64,000 nt of DNA from Fibrobacter sp. UWB13 (GTDB taxonomy: Bacteria; Fibrobacterota; Fibrobacteria; Fibrobacterales; Fibrobacteraceae), in NCBI RefSeq assembly GCF_900177805.1, contig NZ_FXAX01000001.1, forward strand, positions 1,550,001 through 1,614,000, given 5' to 3'. Of this stretch, positions 3,148-62,031 are shown one piece after another; within the stretch, counting starts at the first letter, position 1; each line of letters starts with the position of its first letter. Position numbers and translations under genes: made by a program. Under the pieces are notes generated by a model. That model did no database searches and was not told the DNA's origin. It was given only the letters and a program-made list of their open reading frames with translations.

Positions 3148-4653
3148 ATGAACGTTACTTTTTTAAATCCCCCCTTCCACCCGATGTTCAGTCGGGAATC
3201 TAGATCCCCATGTGTTACGAAGTCCAGTACGCTTTACTGGCCCATGTTTTTGAGCTATGCTGCCGGCGTTTGCGAAGCCGACGGTAACGAAATCCAGCTG
3301 ATCGACAGTCCCGCCATGGAACTCGATCTTCCGCAAACGCTCGAAGGCATCAAGAAATTCGGTCCGGAACTCGTTATTTGCAGCACTAGCACCCCGAGTA
3401 TTTTGAACGACCTCAAGGTAGTACATGCGATCAAGCAAGAAATGCCGAACGTGAAGGTCGCCATCATGGGTACGCACGCGACTGCAGAGCCGCTCGAATC
3501 CATGGAAATGGAACCGTCTTTGGACTACGTGGTGATTGGCGAAGCCGACTACACCTGTAGGAACCTTGTCCGCGCTCTCCGTGGCGATGGCGCTCCTGTC
3601 GGTCAGTTCGCAGGTCTTGCTTACCGCACCGCCGAAGGCAAGGTGGACTTCCAGCCCGAAGGCCCGAAGATTGAAAACCTGAACGAAATCCCGTGGGTCT
3701 CGAAGGTCTACCGCAAGCACCTTTACAGCTGCTACAAGAAGTATTTCTACGGCGCAAACCTGAACCCGCTTATCGTGATTCTCAGTGGCCGCGGTTGCCC
3801 GAACCACTGCAGCTACTGCGTGATTCCGCAGACGCTCAACGGTCACAAGTTCCGCCGCCGCGATCCGAAGGACGTTGTCGACGAACTCCAGTACATCAAG
3901 GAAAACTTCGAAGATTTAGGCGAAGTTTTCTTTGAAGACGATACGTTTACGGCAAGCCACGAACACGTGCGCCAGATTTGCAACTTGATTCTTGAACGAG
4001 GTCTCAAGATTACTTGGAGCTGCAACGCCCGCGCCGATGTGCCGCTCGATTTGCTCAAGCTCATGAAGAAGGCCGGTGGCCGCGAAATGTGCGTGGGCTT
4101 CGAAAGCGCCTCCCCCGAGGTTCTCGAAAAGATCCACAAGGGCGTGAAGAACACAGACAAGGCTATTGAATTTACGAAGAATGCCCGCAAGGCAGGACTC
4201 CTCGTTCACGGATGCTTCATGGTCGGTAACCCGGGCGACACGCCGGAAACTCTCCGCATGACGCTCGACTACGCCAAGAAGCTGAACCCGAACACAGCCC
4301 AGTTCTACCCCATCATGGCATACCCTGGCACCGAAGCTTACAAGGAAGCTCTCGCCAGTGGCGCTTTGAAGTCGAAGGATTACAGCCAGTGGCTCGACAA
4401 AGACGGTTTCCACCGTACCACGATCCAGCGCGGCGAACTCACAAGCCAGGCTCTCGTGGACTTCTGCGACAAGGCCCGCCGTGAATTCTACCTGCGTCCA
4501 AGCTACATCATTAGTCAGGGCATCATGGCGCTCAAGAACCCGCGTGAACGTTACCGCGTTCTCCGTGGATTCGGCACGCTGGTGAAGCACTTGTTCAGAA
4601 AGCATGGTGAACTCGCCCCGGTCGCAAGACAGGCTCCGACTAATAAGACGTAG
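3148..4653 (+). CDS. B12-binding-type radical SAM protein
   Basis: About 501 aa. Residues 1-150 form a Rossmann-like domain of the cobalamin-binding fold (N-terminal LNPPF motif) but show no clear D-x-H-x-x-G cobalamin-ligand signature. A radical SAM domain follows with C217-x3-C221-x2-C224 (RGCPNHCSYC) binding a 4Fe-4S cluster, and later elements EDDTFT, CNARAD and FMVGNPGDT typical of BchE/MiaB-like enzymes. The substrate is unknown; relatives modify lipids, tetrapyrroles or natural products. Start chosen at MNVTFLNPPF, the usual family beginning; an ATG six codons upstream is also in frame. The stop codon lies inside a hairpin repeat (4649-4690). Confidence 0.82.
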   Translation: MNVTFLNPPFHPMFSRESRSPCVTKSSTLYWPMFLSYAAGVCEADGNEIQLIDSPAMELDLPQTLEGIKKFGPELVICSTSTPSILNDLKVVHAIKQEMPNVKVAIMGTHATAEPLESMEMEPSLDYVVIGEADYTCRNLVRALRGDGAPVGQFAGLAYRTAEGKVDFQPEGPKIENLNEIPWVSKVYRKHLYSCYKKYFYGANLNPLIVILSGRGCPNHCSYCVIPQTLNGHKFRRRDPKDVVDELQYIKENFEDLGEVFFEDDTFTASHEHVRQICNLILERGLKITWSCNARADVPLDLLKLMKKAGGREMCVGFESASPEVLEKIHKGVKNTDKAIEFTKNARKAGLLVHGCFMVGNPGDTPETLRMTLDYAKKLNPNTAQFYPIMAYPGTEAYKEALASGALKSKDYSQWLDKDGFHRTTIQRGELTSQALVDFCDKARREFYLRPSYIISQGIMALKNPRERYRVLRGFGTLVKHLFRKHGELAPVARQAPTNKT

Positions 4654-4770: not shown

Positions 4771-4804
4771 GTCATTCTGAGAGGCGAATAGCCTCGAAGA
4801 ATCC
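4771..4804 (+). repeat. REP-like palindromic element (GTCATTCTGAG...GAATCC)
   Basis: The element reads GTCATTCTGAGAGGCGAA, then TAGCCTCGAAGAATCC: an imperfect hairpin with GAGGCGA/TAGCCTC pairing. It belongs to a set of elements in this window that all start GTCAT and end in a pyrimidine-rich ATCC-type tail (others at 10885, 43258, 53481, 60725, 62364). Confidence 0.65.
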
Positions 4805-10884: not shown

Positions 10885-10911
10885 GGATGCCCGCTCGGCG
10901 GCGGGCATGAC
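10885..10911 (-). repeat. REP-like palindromic element
   Basis: On the minus strand it reads GTCATGCCCGCCGCCGAG followed by CGGGCATCC: stem ATGCCCG / CGGGCAT. Member of the GTCAT-hairpin set; located between the terminator and the 3' end of tex. Confidence 0.6.
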
Positions 10912-10932: not shown

Positions 10933-13326
10933 CTAGAAGCCCTTCTTCATAGATTTAAGAAGAGCGTTCAGCTTGGCGGGCTGGGCTGCATTCGGCTTCT
11001 TCTGCGGCTGCATGCCCGGGCGTTCCTTACCGGCAATTTTGTTCTTGAGGTCGGCAATCGTTGCATGTCCCTGAATGCCACCCTGCGGGCGAGCACCACC
11101 GTCGCGATGACCGAAGTTACCACGCGGGCCACCCACGCGCTGACCGCGAGGACCGCTCACGCCAGCACCGGCAACACCGTCCGTCTGTTCCTGCTTCATG
11201 GAAAGGCTGATGCGCTTCTGGTTAGCATCGACTGCAACCACGCGAACCTTCACCACGTCACCGACCGTAAGCACGTCCTTAGCGTCCGTCACATACTTGT
11301 CGCTGATTTCAGAAATGTGAACGAGACCGTCCTGATGCACGCCGATGTCCACGAAAGCACCGAAGTTAGCAACGTTGGTCACGACACCTTCCATCCAGCT
11401 ACCCGTCACGAGGTCGTTGATGGTCTTGATGCGGTCATCGAACTTAGCATAACGGAATTCCTTACGCGGGTCGCGGCTCGGCTTCTGGAGTTCCTTGAGG
11501 ATATCTTCCAAAGTAGCACGACCGACTTCGTCGGAGAGGAATTCGTCGAGCTTGATGCCCTTCACGGCGTCTGCATTGCCGACCATTTCCTTGACCGGAA
11601 CACCGACCTTTTCAGCCATCTTTTCGACGAGGGCGTAGTTTTCAGGATGCACGGCGGAATCGTCGAGCGGGTTTTCTGCACCCGGGATACGCATAAAGCC
11701 TGCGGCCTGTTCGAAAGCCTTCGGACCAAAGCCCTTGACCTTCTTCAAATCTTCACGGCTTGCATAAGCGCCATTTTCTTCACGGTACTTCACAATAGCT
11801 TCAGAGAGCGTGTTGCTGAGGCCTGCCACGTGAGAGAGGAGCGGAGCAGAAGCGCTGTTCACGTCAACACCGACCATGTTCACGCAGCTTTCCACGACTT
11901 CGTCCAAGCGCTTCTTGAGTTCGCGCTGGTTCACGTCGTGCTGGTACTGGCCCACGCCAATGGACTGCGGATCGACCTTGACAAGTTCAGCGAGCGGGTC
12001 CTGCAAGCGGCGGCCAATGGAAATAGCACCACGGGTCGTCACGTCTTCCTTCGGGAATTCGGCGATAGCAATCATGCTTGCGCTATAGACAGATGCACCG
12101 GCTTCGGAGACGATAACGCGCGGCGGAACCTTGCCCTTGAACTTGAGAGCCATTTCGCCACAGAAAGCGTCCGTTTCGCGGCTTGCCGTACCGTTACCGA
12201 TTGCGATGAGGTCAATCTGATACTTGTCGATGAGGCTCATCAGATAAACTGCGGCACCGGCCTTGTCGTTCCACGGTTCATGCGGCTTGATGATGCCGTG
12301 ATCCATGAACTTGCCGTTCTTGTCGAGCACAGCGACCTTGCAACCCGTACGGAAACCCGGGTCGAGGGCGAGCACAGCCTTGTGGCCTGCCGGAGCGGCG
12401 AGCAAAACGTCCTGGAGATTCTTGGAGAACACCTTGAAAGCTTCTTCTTCGGCGCTGTCCTTGAGGAGGAGGCGCACTTCGCTTTCCATGCTCGGCTGGA
12501 GCAGGCGTTCCCAAGCGTCCTTGCACATATCTTCGAGGTACGGCTTCCAGACAGAGTCGTGCTTGATGACCTGATTCTGGAGATAACCGATCATTTCTTC
12601 GTTCGGGACTTCGATGGAGAGGCGAAGCACCTTTTCCTTTTCGCCACGGCGGAGAGCGAGCATACGGTGGCTCGGGATCTTGGAGACCGGTTCGCTAAAG
12701 TCGTAGTAGTCCTTGAACTTGGTTTCTTGCTTTTCGAAATCCTTCTTGACCTTGGAAACCATGACGCCAGTCTTTTCGACCTTGTTGCGGAGGTACTGAC
12801 GGTATTCGGCGTTGTCTGCAACTTCTTCGGCGAGGATGTCTGCAGCACCCTTGAGGGCGGCACGTGGGTCGGCAAGTCCCTTTTCTTCGGACAAATAAAT
12901 GCGTGCAATTTCTTCTGCCGTGTTTCCGGTATTTTCCTGAGCCCACATCAGGCGGGCGAGCGGTTCCAGACCAAGTTCCTTTGCAATCGTTGCGCGAGTA
13001 CGCTTCTTCGGCTTGAACGGAGCGTAAATATCTTCGAGAAGAGTCTTGTCCTTGCAAGCTTCAATCTGAGCCTTGAGTTCCGGCGTGAGCTTGCCCTGTT
13101 CCTCGATGCTCTTGAGGATCGTTTCCTTGCGGTCCACAAGTTCCTGGAGGTAGTCGCGACGGTGGCTGATGTCGCGGAGTTCAATTTCGTTCAATGTACC
13201 CGTTTGGTCCTTACGGTAACGGGCGATAAAGGGGATCGTGCCCCCCTGGTCCATAAGTTCGAGCGCCTTAGATACGCGCCACACTTCAAGATTCAGCTCT
13301 TCAGCAATAATCGCAGAAAAATCCAT
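10933..13326 (-). CDS. tex: Tex-like transcription accessory protein, S1 RNA-binding
   Basis: A 797-aa Tex homologue. The order of domains is the usual one: N-terminal Tex/helix-turn-helix region (IPFIARYRKDQTGTLNE, the family signature), a YqgF/RNase H-like core (LALDPGFRTGCKVAVLD), helix-hairpin-helix repeats (about 500-565, including KKVKGFGPKAFEQ) and one S1 domain (about 640-710, VTNVANFGAFVDIG). The C-terminal about 70 residues are a Gly/Arg/Lys-rich basic tail. Tex proteins bind structured nucleic acids and affect transcription and stress tolerance. Length is typical. An exactly antisense open frame of about 900 codons is an artefact of codon bias. Confidence 0.95.
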   Translation of the reverse strand: MDFSAIIAEELNLEVWRVSKALELMDQGGTIPFIARYRKDQTGTLNEIELRDISHRRDYLQELVDRKETILKSIEEQGKLTPELKAQIEACKDKTLLEDIYAPFKPKKRTRATIAKELGLEPLARLMWAQENTGNTAEEIARIYLSEEKGLADPRAALKGAADILAEEVADNAEYRQYLRNKVEKTGVMVSKVKKDFEKQETKFKDYYDFSEPVSKIPSHRMLALRRGEKEKVLRLSIEVPNEEMIGYLQNQVIKHDSVWKPYLEDMCKDAWERLLQPSMESEVRLLLKDSAEEEAFKVFSKNLQDVLLAAPAGHKAVLALDPGFRTGCKVAVLDKNGKFMDHGIIKPHEPWNDKAGAAVYLMSLIDKYQIDLIAIGNGTASRETDAFCGEMALKFKGKVPPRVIVSEAGASVYSASMIAIAEFPKEDVTTRGAISIGRRLQDPLAELVKVDPQSIGVGQYQHDVNQRELKKRLDEVVESCVNMVGVDVNSASAPLLSHVAGLSNTLSEAIVKYREENGAYASREDLKKVKGFGPKAFEQAAGFMRIPGAENPLDDSAVHPENYALVEKMAEKVGVPVKEMVGNADAVKGIKLDEFLSDEVGRATLEDILKELQKPSRDPRKEFRYAKFDDRIKTINDLVTGSWMEGVVTNVANFGAFVDIGVHQDGLVHISEISDKYVTDAKDVLTVGDVVKVRVVAVDANQKRISLSMKQEQTDGVAGAGVSGPRGQRVGGPRGNFGHRDGGARPQGGIQGHATIADLKNKIAGKERPGMQPQKKPNAAQPAKLNALLKSMKKGF

Positions 13327-43257: not shown

Positions 43258-43291
43258 GGATCCTATCGCCTCTACGAGGCTCCAGGATGAC
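43258..43291 (-). repeat. REP-like palindromic element
   Basis: On the minus strand it reads GTCATCCTGGAGCCTCG, then TAGAGGCGATAGGATCC, with GGATCCTATCGCCTC pairing GAGGCTCCAGGATGAC imperfectly. It is 15 bases before the pseudouridine synthase ATG, so it might hide that start region in mRNA. Confidence 0.6.
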
Positions 43292-53480: not shown

Positions 53481-53508
53481 GTCATGCCGGCCATGTGCCG
53501 GCATCGCC
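53481..53508 (+). repeat. REP-like palindromic element (GTCATGCCGG...CCGGCATCGCC)
   Basis: Perfect stem ATGCCGG-CCATGTG-CCGGCAT inside GTCATGCCGGCCATGTG + CCGGCATCGCC. Its two ends, GTCATGCCGG and CGGCATCGCC, are shared with the larger element at 62364-62446. Confidence 0.7.
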
Positions 53509-56558: not shown

Positions 56559-59500
56559 CTATTCTTCGTCCTTGACACAACGGACAGATAACACATGATT
56601 CTTTTCATAATCAACCAGTCTTACTTCGTCAAAATCACAATAAGTAAGGTTTATTACAGTAGCCTTGGACGCGCCAGACTGAGATGACGTCCAATAATAC
56701 GCACCTTCAGTTCCCCCAAACTGAATTTTATCAATATTTTTACAATAGATATCATGCGTTGTTTCACAATCAGGAGAGCCTTGATCTTCAAGAACATAGT
56801 ATCCTTTTTCATTATCCCACGCACTAAATCCATATTCATCAACTGATTGACGACCATAAGTGTCATCAACGCCCCAATCTTTCAAACGGAATAAAGCCTC
56901 GGTTGCTCCACCAGCAAAGTTTATCAGAGTATTCCATTCTTCTTTAGATGGCAAATGCCATCCATTTGGACATACACCTTTTCTATTTTCGCCATTATAC
57001 ATTTCTTCTTGATACCTAGACGAGACATCCATAGCCGCATTCCAATAATACACGCGAGAATCACAATCTTCATACCCCCATCCTCTTGTATTACCACCGT
57101 AAATCAAGCCGCACCAAGAGGCTCCTTTTAAATTTTCAGTCGTATTAGAATCAGCATAATTTAAATCCTGAGACATCCAAATCTGTGTACCGATACGAAC
57201 AGTTTGATAAGATAGACCATCTCTTTCATCTATAAGAACATTTTTGTGTATTTGCCATACACCTTGTTTACAAACGTAATCGGATGTATCTGATTTTACA
57301 TTTACGTTACCTTCATTATAGTCCGTACATCCTTCTTTAATGTAGATTTCTCTTGAATTCGCAATTCTAAACATTTCATTTTCATATACATAAAATGTAT
57401 CCGTCACATTTCCTTTTCGTACGGTAGCATCTTCCTTTTTATTCCAACCATATGTATCTTTTTCATATGTAGTCGCATTTCGCCAGTTCCTTTTGTCGCA
57501 TATATGGTAAACCCTATCACTCCCCTTACCCACAATATCTTGACGCGATGCAGTACAACCGCTCAATCCAAGCGAGCAATCCGAAGAAACTCCACTACGC
57601 CAAACGTTATCTTCAAATACATAGCAGTTATTGATATTTACAGAACCGTACTTACTATCACCATCTTTTCCAGCAGTCCAACGATAAGTATCATACTCAA
57701 ACTGAGTCGCAGCAACCCATTTTTCTGATTTACAGATGTAATAAGTACTACCAACCTTTCCCACAGAATCTTTTATTGCAGTCACGCAACCACCAAGATT
57801 TTTCTCAATATCATCCGCAACGCGCCAAGCCGTTTTATCAAATACATAAATAGTATCAGTAACAGAACCCTTCTTGATTTCGCCATTTTTTCCAACAGCC
57901 CAATCCTTATTGTTTTTATAATCGTAAGTATCTTTTTCGATTGTGGTTGCATTTCGCCACGTTTTTTTGCTGATTTCATAGATGTAATAGATACTCTTAT
58001 TCACTTGACCGGCACGTACTTCACCATCAAATTTTCCTGCGCCCCATGTAGCCGTATCTTTTTCAATATTGGTAGCAACACGCCAAGTTTTCGCATCGCA
58101 TTTATACCATACTTTATCACTACCAAGACCAACCGTATCTTGTCTCAATGCTGTACATCCACGCAGTTTCAATGTACAGTCATTTGAATTACCGCTACGC
58201 CACATTTTATTTTCATACACATAGCAGTTCTTAGAATTTACATCACCCGTCTTACAATCTCCATCCTTACCAGCAGCCCACTGATAAGTATCATATTCAA
58301 TAGACGAAGCTGTAGTCCACTTTCCTGATTTGCAAATGAAAAACGAACCTTTTGTTTGACTCAATTTATTTGAATTCTGCAATATTTTACCTTCATTTTC
58401 AGAAGAACATTTTCCTAAGCCATATTCTGTAGTCCCAAAATTATGGATATGCTTTTCAAAATTAGGGACAATCGTAGAAAGTTGCCAATTCGTCACATTT
58501 TTGCGGATACTCTCCATTTTTCCATCAAGTTCTTTTTGTGCAGCCCAATCCGCTAAAGACGCACGCATAGACGTATTATCCCATTTTCCGTCTTCTTCCA
58601 TGTCATTTGCAATTTTCTGCAAAAGTTCAGACAACTGAGAAACGCTCCTGTTACCTTGCAAAATAATCGAGAACGCAAGCAAGGCTCCATCTTCATCACT
58701 GCCACCCGCAATATTCAAATCTTCGGAATTACTGAAATCCGTAGCATCAACATCAAGCAAAGCAAGAACTTCTTTCTGAGCCTGTTTCTTGGCAGCCTGC
58801 ACTTTCATTTTCTTTTGCGTGACTAGATAAATTACACGTTCATATTCAAGATGTGTGAGCAAGTTTATATTCACCGTATTGCGGTCATTCACATCCGTAA
58901 TCGCAAACAAAGTTAATTCAGAGTTAGAATTTTCACCCGTTATTTCATTACGATAATAGCCAGAAGCTTCAAGCATCACATATTGGCTCACAAGCATTCG
59001 TGCCTTGATTTTGAATTCACCCTTGTCGTTCAAAATCTTTCCATTAAAACTATTACCCGTCTGCGTCAAAGTACGACCATCTTCCATTTCACGGATAAGG
59101 ACTCTAGAGCCAGAAAGGAACGGTCCTTTTTGCGAAACACCAGAGACTTCGTTTAACGACACTGCAACTTTTTCAGAGTCTATAACAACAGGGTTCTGTG
59201 AAGATTCTGATTCATCAGATTCAGAACCAACAAAAAGAATTGTGGAATCCTTACCACAAATCACACGAACTTTCTGTTCATCTATTTTTGAGATAGAGCA
59301 ACCAACGCCGTCTTGACCATTCGTTCCATTAGATCCATCTTTACCATTCTTACCATCTGTTCCATTTTTGCCATCGGAGCCATCTTTACCATTAAATACA
59401 ACACCTACAGAATCCCCATTGCAGATTATCTTCACTCCGCTTTTATCCTTAAGCTCTTTCGTTGAGCAAGAAAACGTATCGGTAGAATCAGAACCAACTG

Positions 59501-59753
59501 TAGAATACCACTTTTCGTCAACACAAACTCGGGCAGAAGTTTCGCCTTTGACCCACGCCATTTCCCCCTCATTAGATTTCGTGCACTTGGGTAGTTTTGA
59601 CACATCTGAAACAACGTCCATATTATAAGACGCAGAACTAGTCGATGAATCATCGTCGCCACAAGAGGCTAAGATGATTGCGCAAAGAGAGATTGCAATA
59701 ATCACTAAAAACTCTTGCAATGACGTATTTTTAACGGAGTTCATGCATTTCAT
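56559..59753 (-). CDS. Large Fibrobacter-domain lipoprotein with collagen-like and tandem repeats
   Basis: A 1064-aa lipoprotein: lipobox IILASC (Cys about 31), a short beta region, a collagen-like (GKDGSDGKNGTDGKNG) stretch near residues 125-155, and a helical domain (about 205-440). The middle (about 480-835) consists of two copies of a roughly 180-200 residue block of W-R-x-A-T-x-x-E-K-D-T-Y-x-W and C-Y-V-x-E-x-x-x-W-R-S-G modules. The C-terminus (about 880-1064) is a Fibrobacter major paralogous domain (IGTQIWMSQDLNYAD, CPNGWHLPSKEEWNTL, YYWTSS, SVRCVKD). Probably an outer-membrane surface protein. AAGGAG precedes the start. Third gene of the 61958-56559 operon. Confidence 0.85.
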   Translation of the reverse strand: MKCMNSVKNTSLQEFLVIIAISLCAIILASCGDDDSSTSSASYNMDVVSDVSKLPKCTKSNEGEMAWVKGETSARVCVDEKWYSTVGSDSTDTFSCSTKELKDKSGVKIICNGDSVGVVFNGKDGSDGKNGTDGKNGKDGSNGTNGQDGVGCSISKIDEQKVRVICGKDSTILFVGSESDESESSQNPVVIDSEKVAVSLNEVSGVSQKGPFLSGSRVLIREMEDGRTLTQTGNSFNGKILNDKGEFKIKARMLVSQYVMLEASGYYRNEITGENSNSELTLFAITDVNDRNTVNINLLTHLEYERVIYLVTQKKMKVQAAKKQAQKEVLALLDVDATDFSNSEDLNIAGGSDEDGALLAFSIILQGNRSVSQLSELLQKIANDMEEDGKWDNTSMRASLADWAAQKELDGKMESIRKNVTNWQLSTIVPNFEKHIHNFGTTEYGLGKCSSENEGKILQNSNKLSQTKGSFFICKSGKWTTASSIEYDTYQWAAGKDGDCKTGDVNSKNCYVYENKMWRSGNSNDCTLKLRGCTALRQDTVGLGSDKVWYKCDAKTWRVATNIEKDTATWGAGKFDGEVRAGQVNKSIYYIYEISKKTWRNATTIEKDTYDYKNNKDWAVGKNGEIKKGSVTDTIYVFDKTAWRVADDIEKNLGGCVTAIKDSVGKVGSTYYICKSEKWVAATQFEYDTYRWTAGKDGDSKYGSVNINNCYVFEDNVWRSGVSSDCSLGLSGCTASRQDIVGKGSDRVYHICDKRNWRNATTYEKDTYGWNKKEDATVRKGNVTDTFYVYENEMFRIANSREIYIKEGCTDYNEGNVNVKSDTSDYVCKQGVWQIHKNVLIDERDGLSYQTVRIGTQIWMSQDLNYADSNTTENLKGASWCGLIYGGNTRGWGYEDCDSRVYYWNAAMDVSSRYQEEMYNGENRKGVCPNGWHLPSKEEWNTLINFAGGATEALFRLKDWGVDDTYGRQSVDEYGFSAWDNEKGYYVLEDQGSPDCETTHDIYCKNIDKIQFGGTEGAYYWTSSQSGASKATVINLTYCDFDEVRLVDYEKNHVLSVRCVKDEE

Positions 59754-59774: not shown

Positions 59775-60782
59775 TTATTTTTTGACGCAGCGGACTGAAA
59801 TGTATTGGTCGTTATCCATCTTGGCTGTTGCAGAATAAGAGTCGCCATCCCCATTGAGGGAGAGTGCCAAGTGGCTTGTATTTTTGACTTTTTCAGTCGA
59901 GGTCCACCAATACCCTAATTTTCCGATATTCAAGCAAGTCTGTTCCTCGTTACACTTGCCGCCAGGAAGCGCTGTAAATTCCAGGAAATCATCTCCATTT
60001 TCAGGAGTCCAACCCTCTATTGCCTTAAAGTGCGCTCCGGCATCATAAAGCGTAGCGCCTTCCATAGAATATTCGGCCAAGGCATCATATTCGGCACTTG
60101 TCGGGAGGCGCCAACCTGTCGGGCATGCAAGCGAAGCCGCTTCGTAATCATAAAGCCGACCGTACTTGTCACAATTTGAGTCGTCGTTTCCGTAACACAT
60201 CGTATTACCAGTACTTGGGAGATATCGCAAATTTTCCTTTGTCCAGCATTGTTCTTTAATCACAACCGTTTTGTATTCTCGATCGCCACGCGTTACCGTA
60301 GACTCGCCACATGTCCATAAATTTTCGCTACTTGAAGACGTGTGTTCAGAACTTGATGATGATTCTGCGTTTTCACTACTTGATGATGATCGTGCGCTAC
60401 TTGAAGATGATTGTTCACTACTAGATGACCATTGTTCGGAACTTAAAGCGGGAATAACAGAGGAAGACGACTCCACCTTTTTACTGCTCGATGAAGCTTT
60501 TTTGCTTGAACTAGATGGCGATGCCGGAACAGAGTCCGGCATGACGGAAGAAGACGAGCGCGTCGAACACGATGAAGACGATTTTGTGTCATCGTCTTCT
60601 ATAACGTAATTAGATGCACCAGGGTCAAGAGGATTGTCACGGTCACCAAAATCGCTACAAGATGCAAAGAGAAGCATTACCAAGGACGCAATCATCACAT
60701 GCCCCAAAGACCGCAACACAAGAGGGAGATTCCCGCCTTCGCGGGAATGACATTTACAAGAATTATTCTTTTCAATTTTCAT
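59775..60782 (-). CDS. Ser-rich Fibrobacter-domain lipoprotein with a repeat element in its signal peptide
   Basis: About 335 aa. Start at ATG 60782 (MKIEKNN) with AGGTGGGG six bases upstream, a site that overlaps the previous stop. The long n-region includes CHSREGGNLPL, translated from a REP-like palindrome (60725-60751), before the hydrophobic core and lipobox MLLFASC. A Ser-rich linker (about 65-160: SSSSKKASSSS, SSSSEHTSSSS) leads to a C-terminal Fibrobacter major paralogous domain (about 165-335: KEQCWTKENLRYLP, CPTGWRLPTSAEYDAL, YWWTSTE, SVRCVKK). A start at ATG 60695 would remove the repeat and is the alternative. It ends 22 bases before the next gene. Confidence 0.82.
   Translation of the reverse strand: MKIEKNNSCKCHSREGGNLPLVLRSLGHVMIASLVMLLFASCSDFGDRDNPLDPGASNYVIEDDDTKSSSSCSTRSSSSVMPDSVPASPSSSSKKASSSSKKVESSSSVIPALSSEQWSSSSEQSSSSSARSSSSSENAESSSSSEHTSSSSENLWTCGESTVTRGDREYKTVVIKEQCWTKENLRYLPSTGNTMCYGNDDSNCDKYGRLYDYEAASLACPTGWRLPTSAEYDALAEYSMEGATLYDAGAHFKAIEGWTPENGDDFLEFTALPGGKCNEEQTCLNIGKLGYWWTSTEKVKNTSHLALSLNGDGDSYSATAKMDNDQYISVRCVKK
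60725..60751 (-). repeat. REP-like palindrome lying in frame inside a lipoprotein gene
   Basis: On the minus strand it reads GTCATTCCCGCGAAGG then CGGGAATCTCC, stem ATTCCCGC / GCGGGAAT. This type is common between bacterial genes, but here it falls inside the open reading frame of the 60782 gene and codes for CHSREGGNLPL. Confidence 0.75.
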
Positions 60783-60794
60783 AATCATCCCCAC

Positions 60795-61958
60795 CTAGAA
60801 CACAAAGAACATCACAGCACCAGCGCCGAGCATTCCAAAACCGACACCATAAAAAACGTTGCGTTTCGTTCTTGCCGATTCGACCTTATCCCATTGCTTG
60901 TCGAAATCCCGCTTATTTTTAAACGTCGCTTCGTCATACTTTTTACGTTCATCATTCCCGACAGAATTTTCATAAATACCAATAGCAACTCCAGCTACAC
61001 CCAAAGCCATCATCGCAATGGAAATCGGCTTTGTAATCGAAAAACTTTTTTCCGTAGTCGAAGCCGCTCGAGAAGCATCTTCAGCGGCAATCTGCTTTGC
61101 TGCGGTCAAAGAATCTACCCGCAACACATGTATTATTTTGACTTTATCCTTACCTTTCCAATCTAGTTCAACTTTTTCGCGAGCTCCGTCTTCACCAACT
61201 TCAATTTTCGAACAAATTGGAATCCGCCCCGAATAATCCGTTCGCCCAACCAAGGAATCATTTACAAATACAGGAACCTCACGAAAATTTTCATTGAAAA
61301 GGGTCCTGAGAGAAACTTTACCCATAGCAACATTCATGGAACCATTCAACGTTATTGTCTTGCCACTCAACACATTCACATTGAATTTCTGAGGTTCGTA
61401 ACAACGATGAAGAAATTCAACTTCATGTACTCCCGGAGTCAGTTTCCACGAGCCTCGGGCGTATTTACGACCATCCTTGTCGCTTTTTCCATCAATTTTA
61501 ATGACTAGGTCTTTCTCAAGACCTCCCTTATAAGGCAACGAAGGCTGTAAATTGACTGTTCCAAACGTACTTGTCGTTATTTGCATAAACAAATCTCGTG
61601 ACTTTTGACGAACCTCAGTCTCAAGAGATTCAACATTCGGAGCCTTGGAACTAAAGCTTCCCAACAGTCTATTACCAGCAGTCTCATAAAGTTCCACTGT
61701 AATCGTCAAGTTGTTTGCAAACTGTCCCACATGAGCCTGAGCCACATAATCGGCAGAAATATTTCGACCTATTTCGACAATAAAGTTCTGTTCTGCAGGG
61801 AGTGCCTTGACAGCCTCCGACCGTAATACATCTGTCAAATATTGTTTTTCTTCGAGCGTAATAATATTTGCAGCAGAGACTGTCTCAAGAACAGCCACAT
61901 GAGCAGCAAGAGTTGGAAATGCAAAAAAGAGAACTAAAGCAAAAATTCCCCTAGCCAT
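60795..61958 (-). CDS. PEGA-type envelope protein
   Basis: A 387-aa exported protein: signal peptide (about 1-19, ending TLAA), a TolB-like N-terminal alpha/beta region (HVAVLETVSAANIITLEEK...LTDVLRSEAVKAL, AQAHVGQFANNLTITVELYE), two PEGA-like strands (about 145-240) and two glycine-rich hydrophobic helices at the C-terminus (about 320-338 and 370-387). The layout echoes the protein at 9-1595. The start is ATG 61958, six bases after GGAG; the ATG four codons upstream contains that GGAG. First gene of the operon. Proteins like this often sense or anchor surface structures. Confidence 0.75.
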   Translation of the reverse strand: MARGIFALVLFFAFPTLAAHVAVLETVSAANIITLEEKQYLTDVLRSEAVKALPAEQNFIVEIGRNISADYVAQAHVGQFANNLTITVELYETAGNRLLGSFSSKAPNVESLETEVRQKSRDLFMQITTSTFGTVNLQPSLPYKGGLEKDLVIKIDGKSDKDGRKYARGSWKLTPGVHEVEFLHRCYEPQKFNVNVLSGKTITLNGSMNVAMGKVSLRTLFNENFREVPVFVNDSLVGRTDYSGRIPICSKIEVGEDGAREKVELDWKGKDKVKIIHVLRVDSLTAAKQIAAEDASRAASTTEKSFSITKPISIAMMALGVAGVAIGIYENSVGNDERKKYDEATFKNKRDFDKQWDKVESARTKRNVFYGVGFGMLGAGAVMFFVF

Positions 61959-62031
61959 AATAATCTCCATCGTTTACACCTATGGAGTTTCTCCCCTGCC
62001 AAGCAATATTTTCGTCGATTTTTGAGAATAC

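Follow-up and report, generated by a model that had tools for sequence, protein, structure and literature searches.

How does a dispersed palindromic repeat come to stand between the start codon and the hydrophobic core of a bacterial lipoprotein signal peptide (SP), and is it translated there or does it lie in an untranslated leader? This question is raised by gene B of the window, the 64,000-nucleotide stretch of Fibrobacter sp. UWB13 DNA that was analysed as a whole. The features concerned are as follows.

60795..61970, minus strand: gene A, upstream of gene B and co-directional, 391 aa
59775..60782, minus strand: gene B, FISUMP-domain lipoprotein, 335 aa from ATG 60782; SP MKIEKNNSCKCHSREGGNLPLVLRSLGHVMIASLVMLLFASC; PF09603 1.7e-25, TIGR02145 8.9e-37
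60657..60782, minus strand: SP-coding segment of gene B, ATG to lipobox Cys, 126 bases
60728..60751, minus strand: putative REP element of CGTC-1 type; TGTC tag with base 60752; stem ATTCCCGC/GCGGGAAT; loop GAAG
60693..60695, minus strand: alternative in-frame ATG, codon 29, 3' of the element; would leave an SP without basic residues (MIASLVMLLFASC)
60520..60545, minus strand: a further REP-like palindrome, GTCATGCCGGACTCTGTTCCGGCATC, read as VMPDSVPAS within the Ser-rich gene B linker
56559..59753, minus strand: gene C, FISUMP lipoprotein downstream of gene B, 1064 aa
59691..59724, minus strand: TTGC-type element GTCATTGCAAGAGTTTTTAGTGATTATTGCAATC in the gene C SP, coding TSLQEFLVIIAIS (n-region and start of the hydrophobic core)

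The sequence-only reading had put an in-frame palindrome after ATG 60782 and ahead of the hydrophobic core, with a second possible start at 60695. Both were recovered. The elements in the gene B linker and in the gene C SP are additions to that reading. From ATG 60782 the frame reads K I E K N N S C K, then CHSREGGNL, the coding product of the element in the n-region, and then PLVLRSLGHVMIASLVMLLFASC, with FASC as the lipobox; the later ATG is codon 29. The stop codon of gene A (60795-60797) lies 12 bases ahead of ATG 60782, and gene A itself had no Pfam or NCBIfam match at E ≤0.01.

The window palindrome and its class

GTCATTCCCGCGAAGGCGGGAATC is a 24-bp palindrome (60728-60751, minus strand), preceded by a T that completes the TGTC tag and followed by TCC. 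It occurred only once in the window with three mismatches allowed, and none of 100 dinucleotide shuffles contained it. The source genome (3.8 Mb) held five exact copies of CATTCCCGNNNNNNCGGGAATC and 15 matches to GTCATNCCCGNNNNNNCGGGNATC with at most one mismatch, while the reversed pattern gave none; matches with at most three mismatches were found in all 41 genus genomes searched. All sense frames of the element are stop-free and encode basic residues (R or K).

Judged from its sequence, the palindrome fits the CGTC-1 class of REP elements. The tag TGTC (60752-60749) is an allowed variant of the unpaired motif (CGTC, TGTC or CCTC) at one end, the stem has 8 bp with AT in its first two positions, the loop has four bases, and the repeat is multicopy and dispersed in the genome. 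The tail is CTCC, and CGTC-1 tails are mostly, not always, CCA in the available text of PMC3733652. The element does not fit the GTAG REP/RAYT system, since the tag is TGTC and not GTAG. Mobilisation by a RAYT transposase was likewise rejected, because no gene in the 80 genus genomes scored above the cut-off of the NF047646 profile (weaker matches in 25). The source genome has one Y1_Tnp gene, IS200-like by our reading, and none of the repeats listed around it (L066) was of the window element's kind. According to the available text of PMC3733652, no dedicated transposase has been reported for CGTC REPs.

A strict detector was applied to 2.059 Mb of genus DNA, made up of the window and 100 stretches from 18 genomes. 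The results showed 142 elements of the window type and related types, for example GTCAT followed by TCCCG, CCCCG, GCCCG, TCTGA, CCTGA or TGCGA, and most of them were intergenic. Further REP-like palindromes of related types lie in the window at 4771-4803 (plus strand), 10886-10911 (minus), 43259-43291 (minus) and 53481-53505 (plus).

Recurrent elements in the orthologues of gene B

We searched all 80 genomes of the genus with the G016 orthologue as the query (E ≤1e-35) and obtained 21 rows in 19 genomes. The G006 gene, cut at a contig edge, and two G032 rows of one 516-aa ORF were left out, and 18 N-termini were kept; the G032 ORF, set aside as a paralogue, also has two elements in its SP. By an automatic rule, 12/18 orthologues carried an element between the start codon and the lipobox Cys. 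The count rose to 15/18 when one or two changes in arm or tag were accepted (G058, G054, G061), these three and a TTGC-type copy with a lost tag in G032b being degenerate copies by our own reading. G052 retains the 5' half of an element only, and G080 has no element.

The elements differed among species. A TTCTGA-type element, read as CHSERSEAKSKN or near variants, was found in six orthologues, and the G002 and G055 orthologues have a TTGCGA-type element, read as CHCETLWVVAIS and SLRVGLSTAAIS, respectively. The TTCCCG type codes CHSREGGNL in the window and VIPAKAGIS or VIPAQAGIS in G017 and G040; the G061 element is a TCCCCG variant, G047 has a GTCCCTGAG-type stretch and a TTGTGA element, and G011 and G057 have three elements each. 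Taking a configuration as a distinct set of type, frame and context, and not counting G032b separately, we distinguished about eight: CHSERSEAKSKN, CHCETLW, VIPAxAGIS, CHSREGGN, VIPAQVGI, SLRVGLSTAAIS, the G047 set and the G011/G057 triple set. They differ in element type, reading frame and copy number, and the orientation is always sense. In the 12 rule-found cases the element starts 15-108 bases past the A of the ATG (19-51 in ten of these), and in some species the first residues of the hydrophobic core (AIS, GIS) come from its 3' end. G016 differs from G074/G076 by three further repeats of a 7-base unit (21 bases), with the frame kept. The downstream gene C carried an element in 3/19 loci by the rule (G000, G006, G047).

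A second dispersed repeat, of the CTACTGTCTACT type, codes part of the hydrophobic core of the gene B SP in G040 (L149), and in G047 (L150) a stretch related to it is found shortly before the gene B start, at the ribosome site. This repeat had 10 copies in the G004 sample and five in the G000 sample.

Predicted translation of the element

The element lies in frame within an otherwise conserved gene, as protein-coding palindromic elements do, although its expression here is predicted from sequence. The upstream start had a computed Shine-Dalgarno (SD) duplex in all 18 N-termini, at -7.0 kcal/mol for ATG 60782 and -7.1 to -12.6 kcal/mol for the 17 orthologues; the ribosome site that had been called good is of moderate strength. 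If initiation in the window species took place past the element, at GTG codon 21 or ATG 60695, the repeat would be untranslated leader. Both later starts are in frame and have computed SD duplexes (-7.3 and -4.7 kcal/mol, respectively), and many N-terminal REPs are possibly extragenic according to the available text of PMC3733652. However, a start at ATG 60695 would leave no basic n-region, and ATG 60782 has its own ribosome site soon after the upstream stop. Moreover, eight orthologues (G017, G040, G002, G055, G047, G061, G011 and G057) have no usable start between the last element and the hydrophobic core, so the element must be translated there. A start at the later ATG is not shared by all orthologues: their start codons precede the element, and the element-free G080 starts at the homologous position. 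On this comparison a leader-only start was rejected as a general explanation, and for the window species, where the earlier reading had offered 60695 as the true start in one of its two options, it is disfavoured and appears quite improbable. The window element would instead be translated from ATG 60782, with GTG codon 21 and ATG codon 29 as further possible starts.

Specificity of the site

An earlier codon-usage caller had put starts late at N-termini that carry an element and had not found the window gene; therefore, a scan independent of gene calling was used, which gave 148 lipoprotein-like ORFs in the 2.059 Mb. An SP element was present in 4/148, namely genes B and C of the window, a relative of gene C in G032 and a G041 FISUMP lipoprotein (L114). 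With genes B and C left out, the count was 1/145, compared to 12/18 orthologues (Fisher 5e-13, nominal because the 18 sequences are related). At the density of 142 per 2.059 Mb, the expectation for the 18 SP segments is 0.14 elements (Poisson P(≥8) 3e-12). None of 15 rows of FISUMP paralogues had an SP element. A general lipoprotein phenomenon was rejected on these counts, and the hot spot is specific to this lipoprotein locus.

Several other sites carried elements at or within genes. In the G041 FISUMP lipoprotein (L114:899-1795), the element tail CGAGGATCC is a possible ribosome site for an ATG directly 3', giving two possible starts. At L097 ~3192-3224 (G000) and L128 ~13151-13183 (G004), the beginning of a protein that looks exported (VTKQSI..LAIAFFAVSSFA) overlaps with a TTGCGA-type element, and the called start codon lies inside the element. 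In-frame REP-like elements were also seen in a TP_methylase/HemD fusion (four elements), HemA, HemC, TruB, a type I RM specificity subunit and an HrpB-type helicase. Loci of such elements in housekeeping and other genes are:

L138:1698-3434 (G004)
L177:9308-11634 (G054)
L168:4905-6068 (G032)
L126:7770-9455 (G004)
L118:10520-13219 (G041)

TruB is a REP target in other bacteria too, as the available text of PMC3733652 describes. Across the GTDB genome collection, a search for ATGA a short distance ahead of a CGTC-1 element yielded at least 118 stretches. Among the 80 loci listed, 10 of the 85 elements examined lay within a frame open for 70 aa or more, one of them (L257) with an SP-like sequence and no evident ribosome site.

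Insertion or exchange

In the FISUMP domain tree, the element-free G080 and the element-bearing G061 are sisters with support of 100/100. The G087 locus (L147) combines two kinds of relatives: its N-terminus and upstream DNA are like G016 (0.89-0.98 identity up to the SP), while its domain and downstream gene are like G017. Past a boundary block, identity was 0.74-1.00 to G017 and 0.51-0.81 to G016, which sets the following feature just behind the SP.

L147 (G087), about positions 1500-1760: recombination switch in gene B

This recombination shows that SPs and mature parts were exchanged, and the two lipoprotein genes may be swapped together as one cassette. The diversity of elements need not reflect as many separate insertions, since an ancestral element could have been replaced by gene conversion or swaps of the N-terminus. 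The clear recombination behind the G087 SP is compatible with such a history, as are the element, frame and distance common to G017 and G040. However, frames and flanking residues differ between configurations (CHSREGGN vs VIPAKAGIS; SLRV vs CHCE), element counts differ, and the sister G080 is element-free, which leaves a history of few insertions doubtful, though a serious competitor. Given the kinship of the orthologues and the G087 recombination, independent events are not exactly countable or readable from the tree. The sequence-only reading had also proposed a tolerated in-frame insertion; orthologue comparison upholds the in-frame part, while the single insertion gives way to a recurrent hot spot with differing elements.

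RNA structure at the gene junction

The placement of the elements (ten of the 12 rule-found cases within the 19-51 bases given above) and their constant sense orientation could reflect a selected RNA hairpin at the gene A/gene B junction, which would tune decay of the upstream mRNA or translation of gene B and make translation of the element a by-product. A position near the 3' end of the upstream gene is typical of REPs in the available text of PMC3733652, the centroid fold allows pairing of the window ribosome site with the 5' arm, and inner stem pairing is kept with different bases in G002 and in the degenerate G032b copy. However, elements between co-directional genes showed a general sense bias (39 sense vs 17 antisense), so orientation alone says little. 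The fold of the window leader was only mildly better than shuffles (z-score -1.47), G058 and G061 have broken stems, G054 has an altered tag, and G080 and G052 are without a full element. With this z-score and the broken stems of the relatives, the case for a conserved RNA structure is weak, and selection for the hairpin is an unlikely account of the locus.

Proposed explanation

The element is probably a translated REP in the n-region, brought in by a process that recurs at gene B and tolerated between the start codon and the hydrophobic core. A CGTC-1-type REP would be translated as the n-region of the lipoprotein SP, and several kinds of REP-like elements would repeatedly come into this stretch, by insertion or by recombination. 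Because gene B starts soon after the gene A stop, an element arriving behind gene A would fall in the coding start of gene B. It would persist because this part of the precursor is loosely constrained and is presumably cut off by signal peptidase II, and because the sense reading is compatible with an n-region. The element in the gene B linker (60520-60545) fits such tolerance. A gap of at most 20 bases upstream was present in 29/129 lipoprotein genes called in the sample, so tight spacing alone does not explain the hot spot, and tolerance alone does not explain the missing elements at these other tightly spaced genes. A further-reaching version, which we put forward tentatively, is that REPs serve as raw material for SPs: different families would be recruited independently, in all three sense frames, as n-region and partly as core, with a mobile repeat driving SP turnover and the junction hairpin possibly selected too.

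Relation to known elements and significance

Protein-coding REPs and Rickettsia palindromic elements (RPEs) are established (PMC3733652, PMC2229807), and the CGTC-1 family includes Neisseria dRS3 and Rickettsia conorii RPE-6 (PMC3733652). As far as the available text of PMC3733652 describes them, CGTC-1 REPs share with the window element a tag of the TGTC variant, an 8-bp stem that opens with AT, a four-base loop, dispersed copies and occurrence inside ORFs including N-termini; the tails differ (CTCC here, CCA there). Many of their N-terminal copies were suspected to be extragenic, whereas here the comparison argues for translation. Like the Rickettsia elements, as described in the accessible parts of PMC3733652 and PMC2229807, these are palindromic repeats in frame within functional genes; unlike them, they cluster in the SP of a single lipoprotein family, and their types vary by species. 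The Yersinia protein YPO1552, whose SP derives partly from the RU-2/YPAL MITE in the available text of PMC2759123, is also a case of a small mobile palindromic element coding part of an SP. It is a single fusion with a 168-bp MITE, proposed to make a new exported protein, whereas the short REPs described here turn up repeatedly, across many species, in a lipoprotein gene that already existed. Fibrobacter is not mentioned in the available text of PMC3733652. No report of a recurrent REP-built SP at one gene, or of REP-built SPs in Fibrobacter, was found among the matches listed in the literature searched, which covered part of the journals. As far as these sources go, protein-coding REPs and one MITE-made SP are known, and the recurrence of a REP-built SP at one gene is the new part.

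For annotation, gene callers may misplace starts at such sites, as the simple codon-usage caller did when it missed the start of the window gene. SPs evolve quickly, and where they came from is difficult to reconstruct. Each SP version at gene B carries a readable tag of its source, and the natural series of none, one or several elements, in three frames and of several types, lets the tolerance of an SP to new sequence be tested. The same series also suits tests of the mobility of transposase-less CGTC REPs and of their possible mRNA role at operon junctions. At gene B, selfish-looking DNA would be translated as part of an export tag and then cut off.
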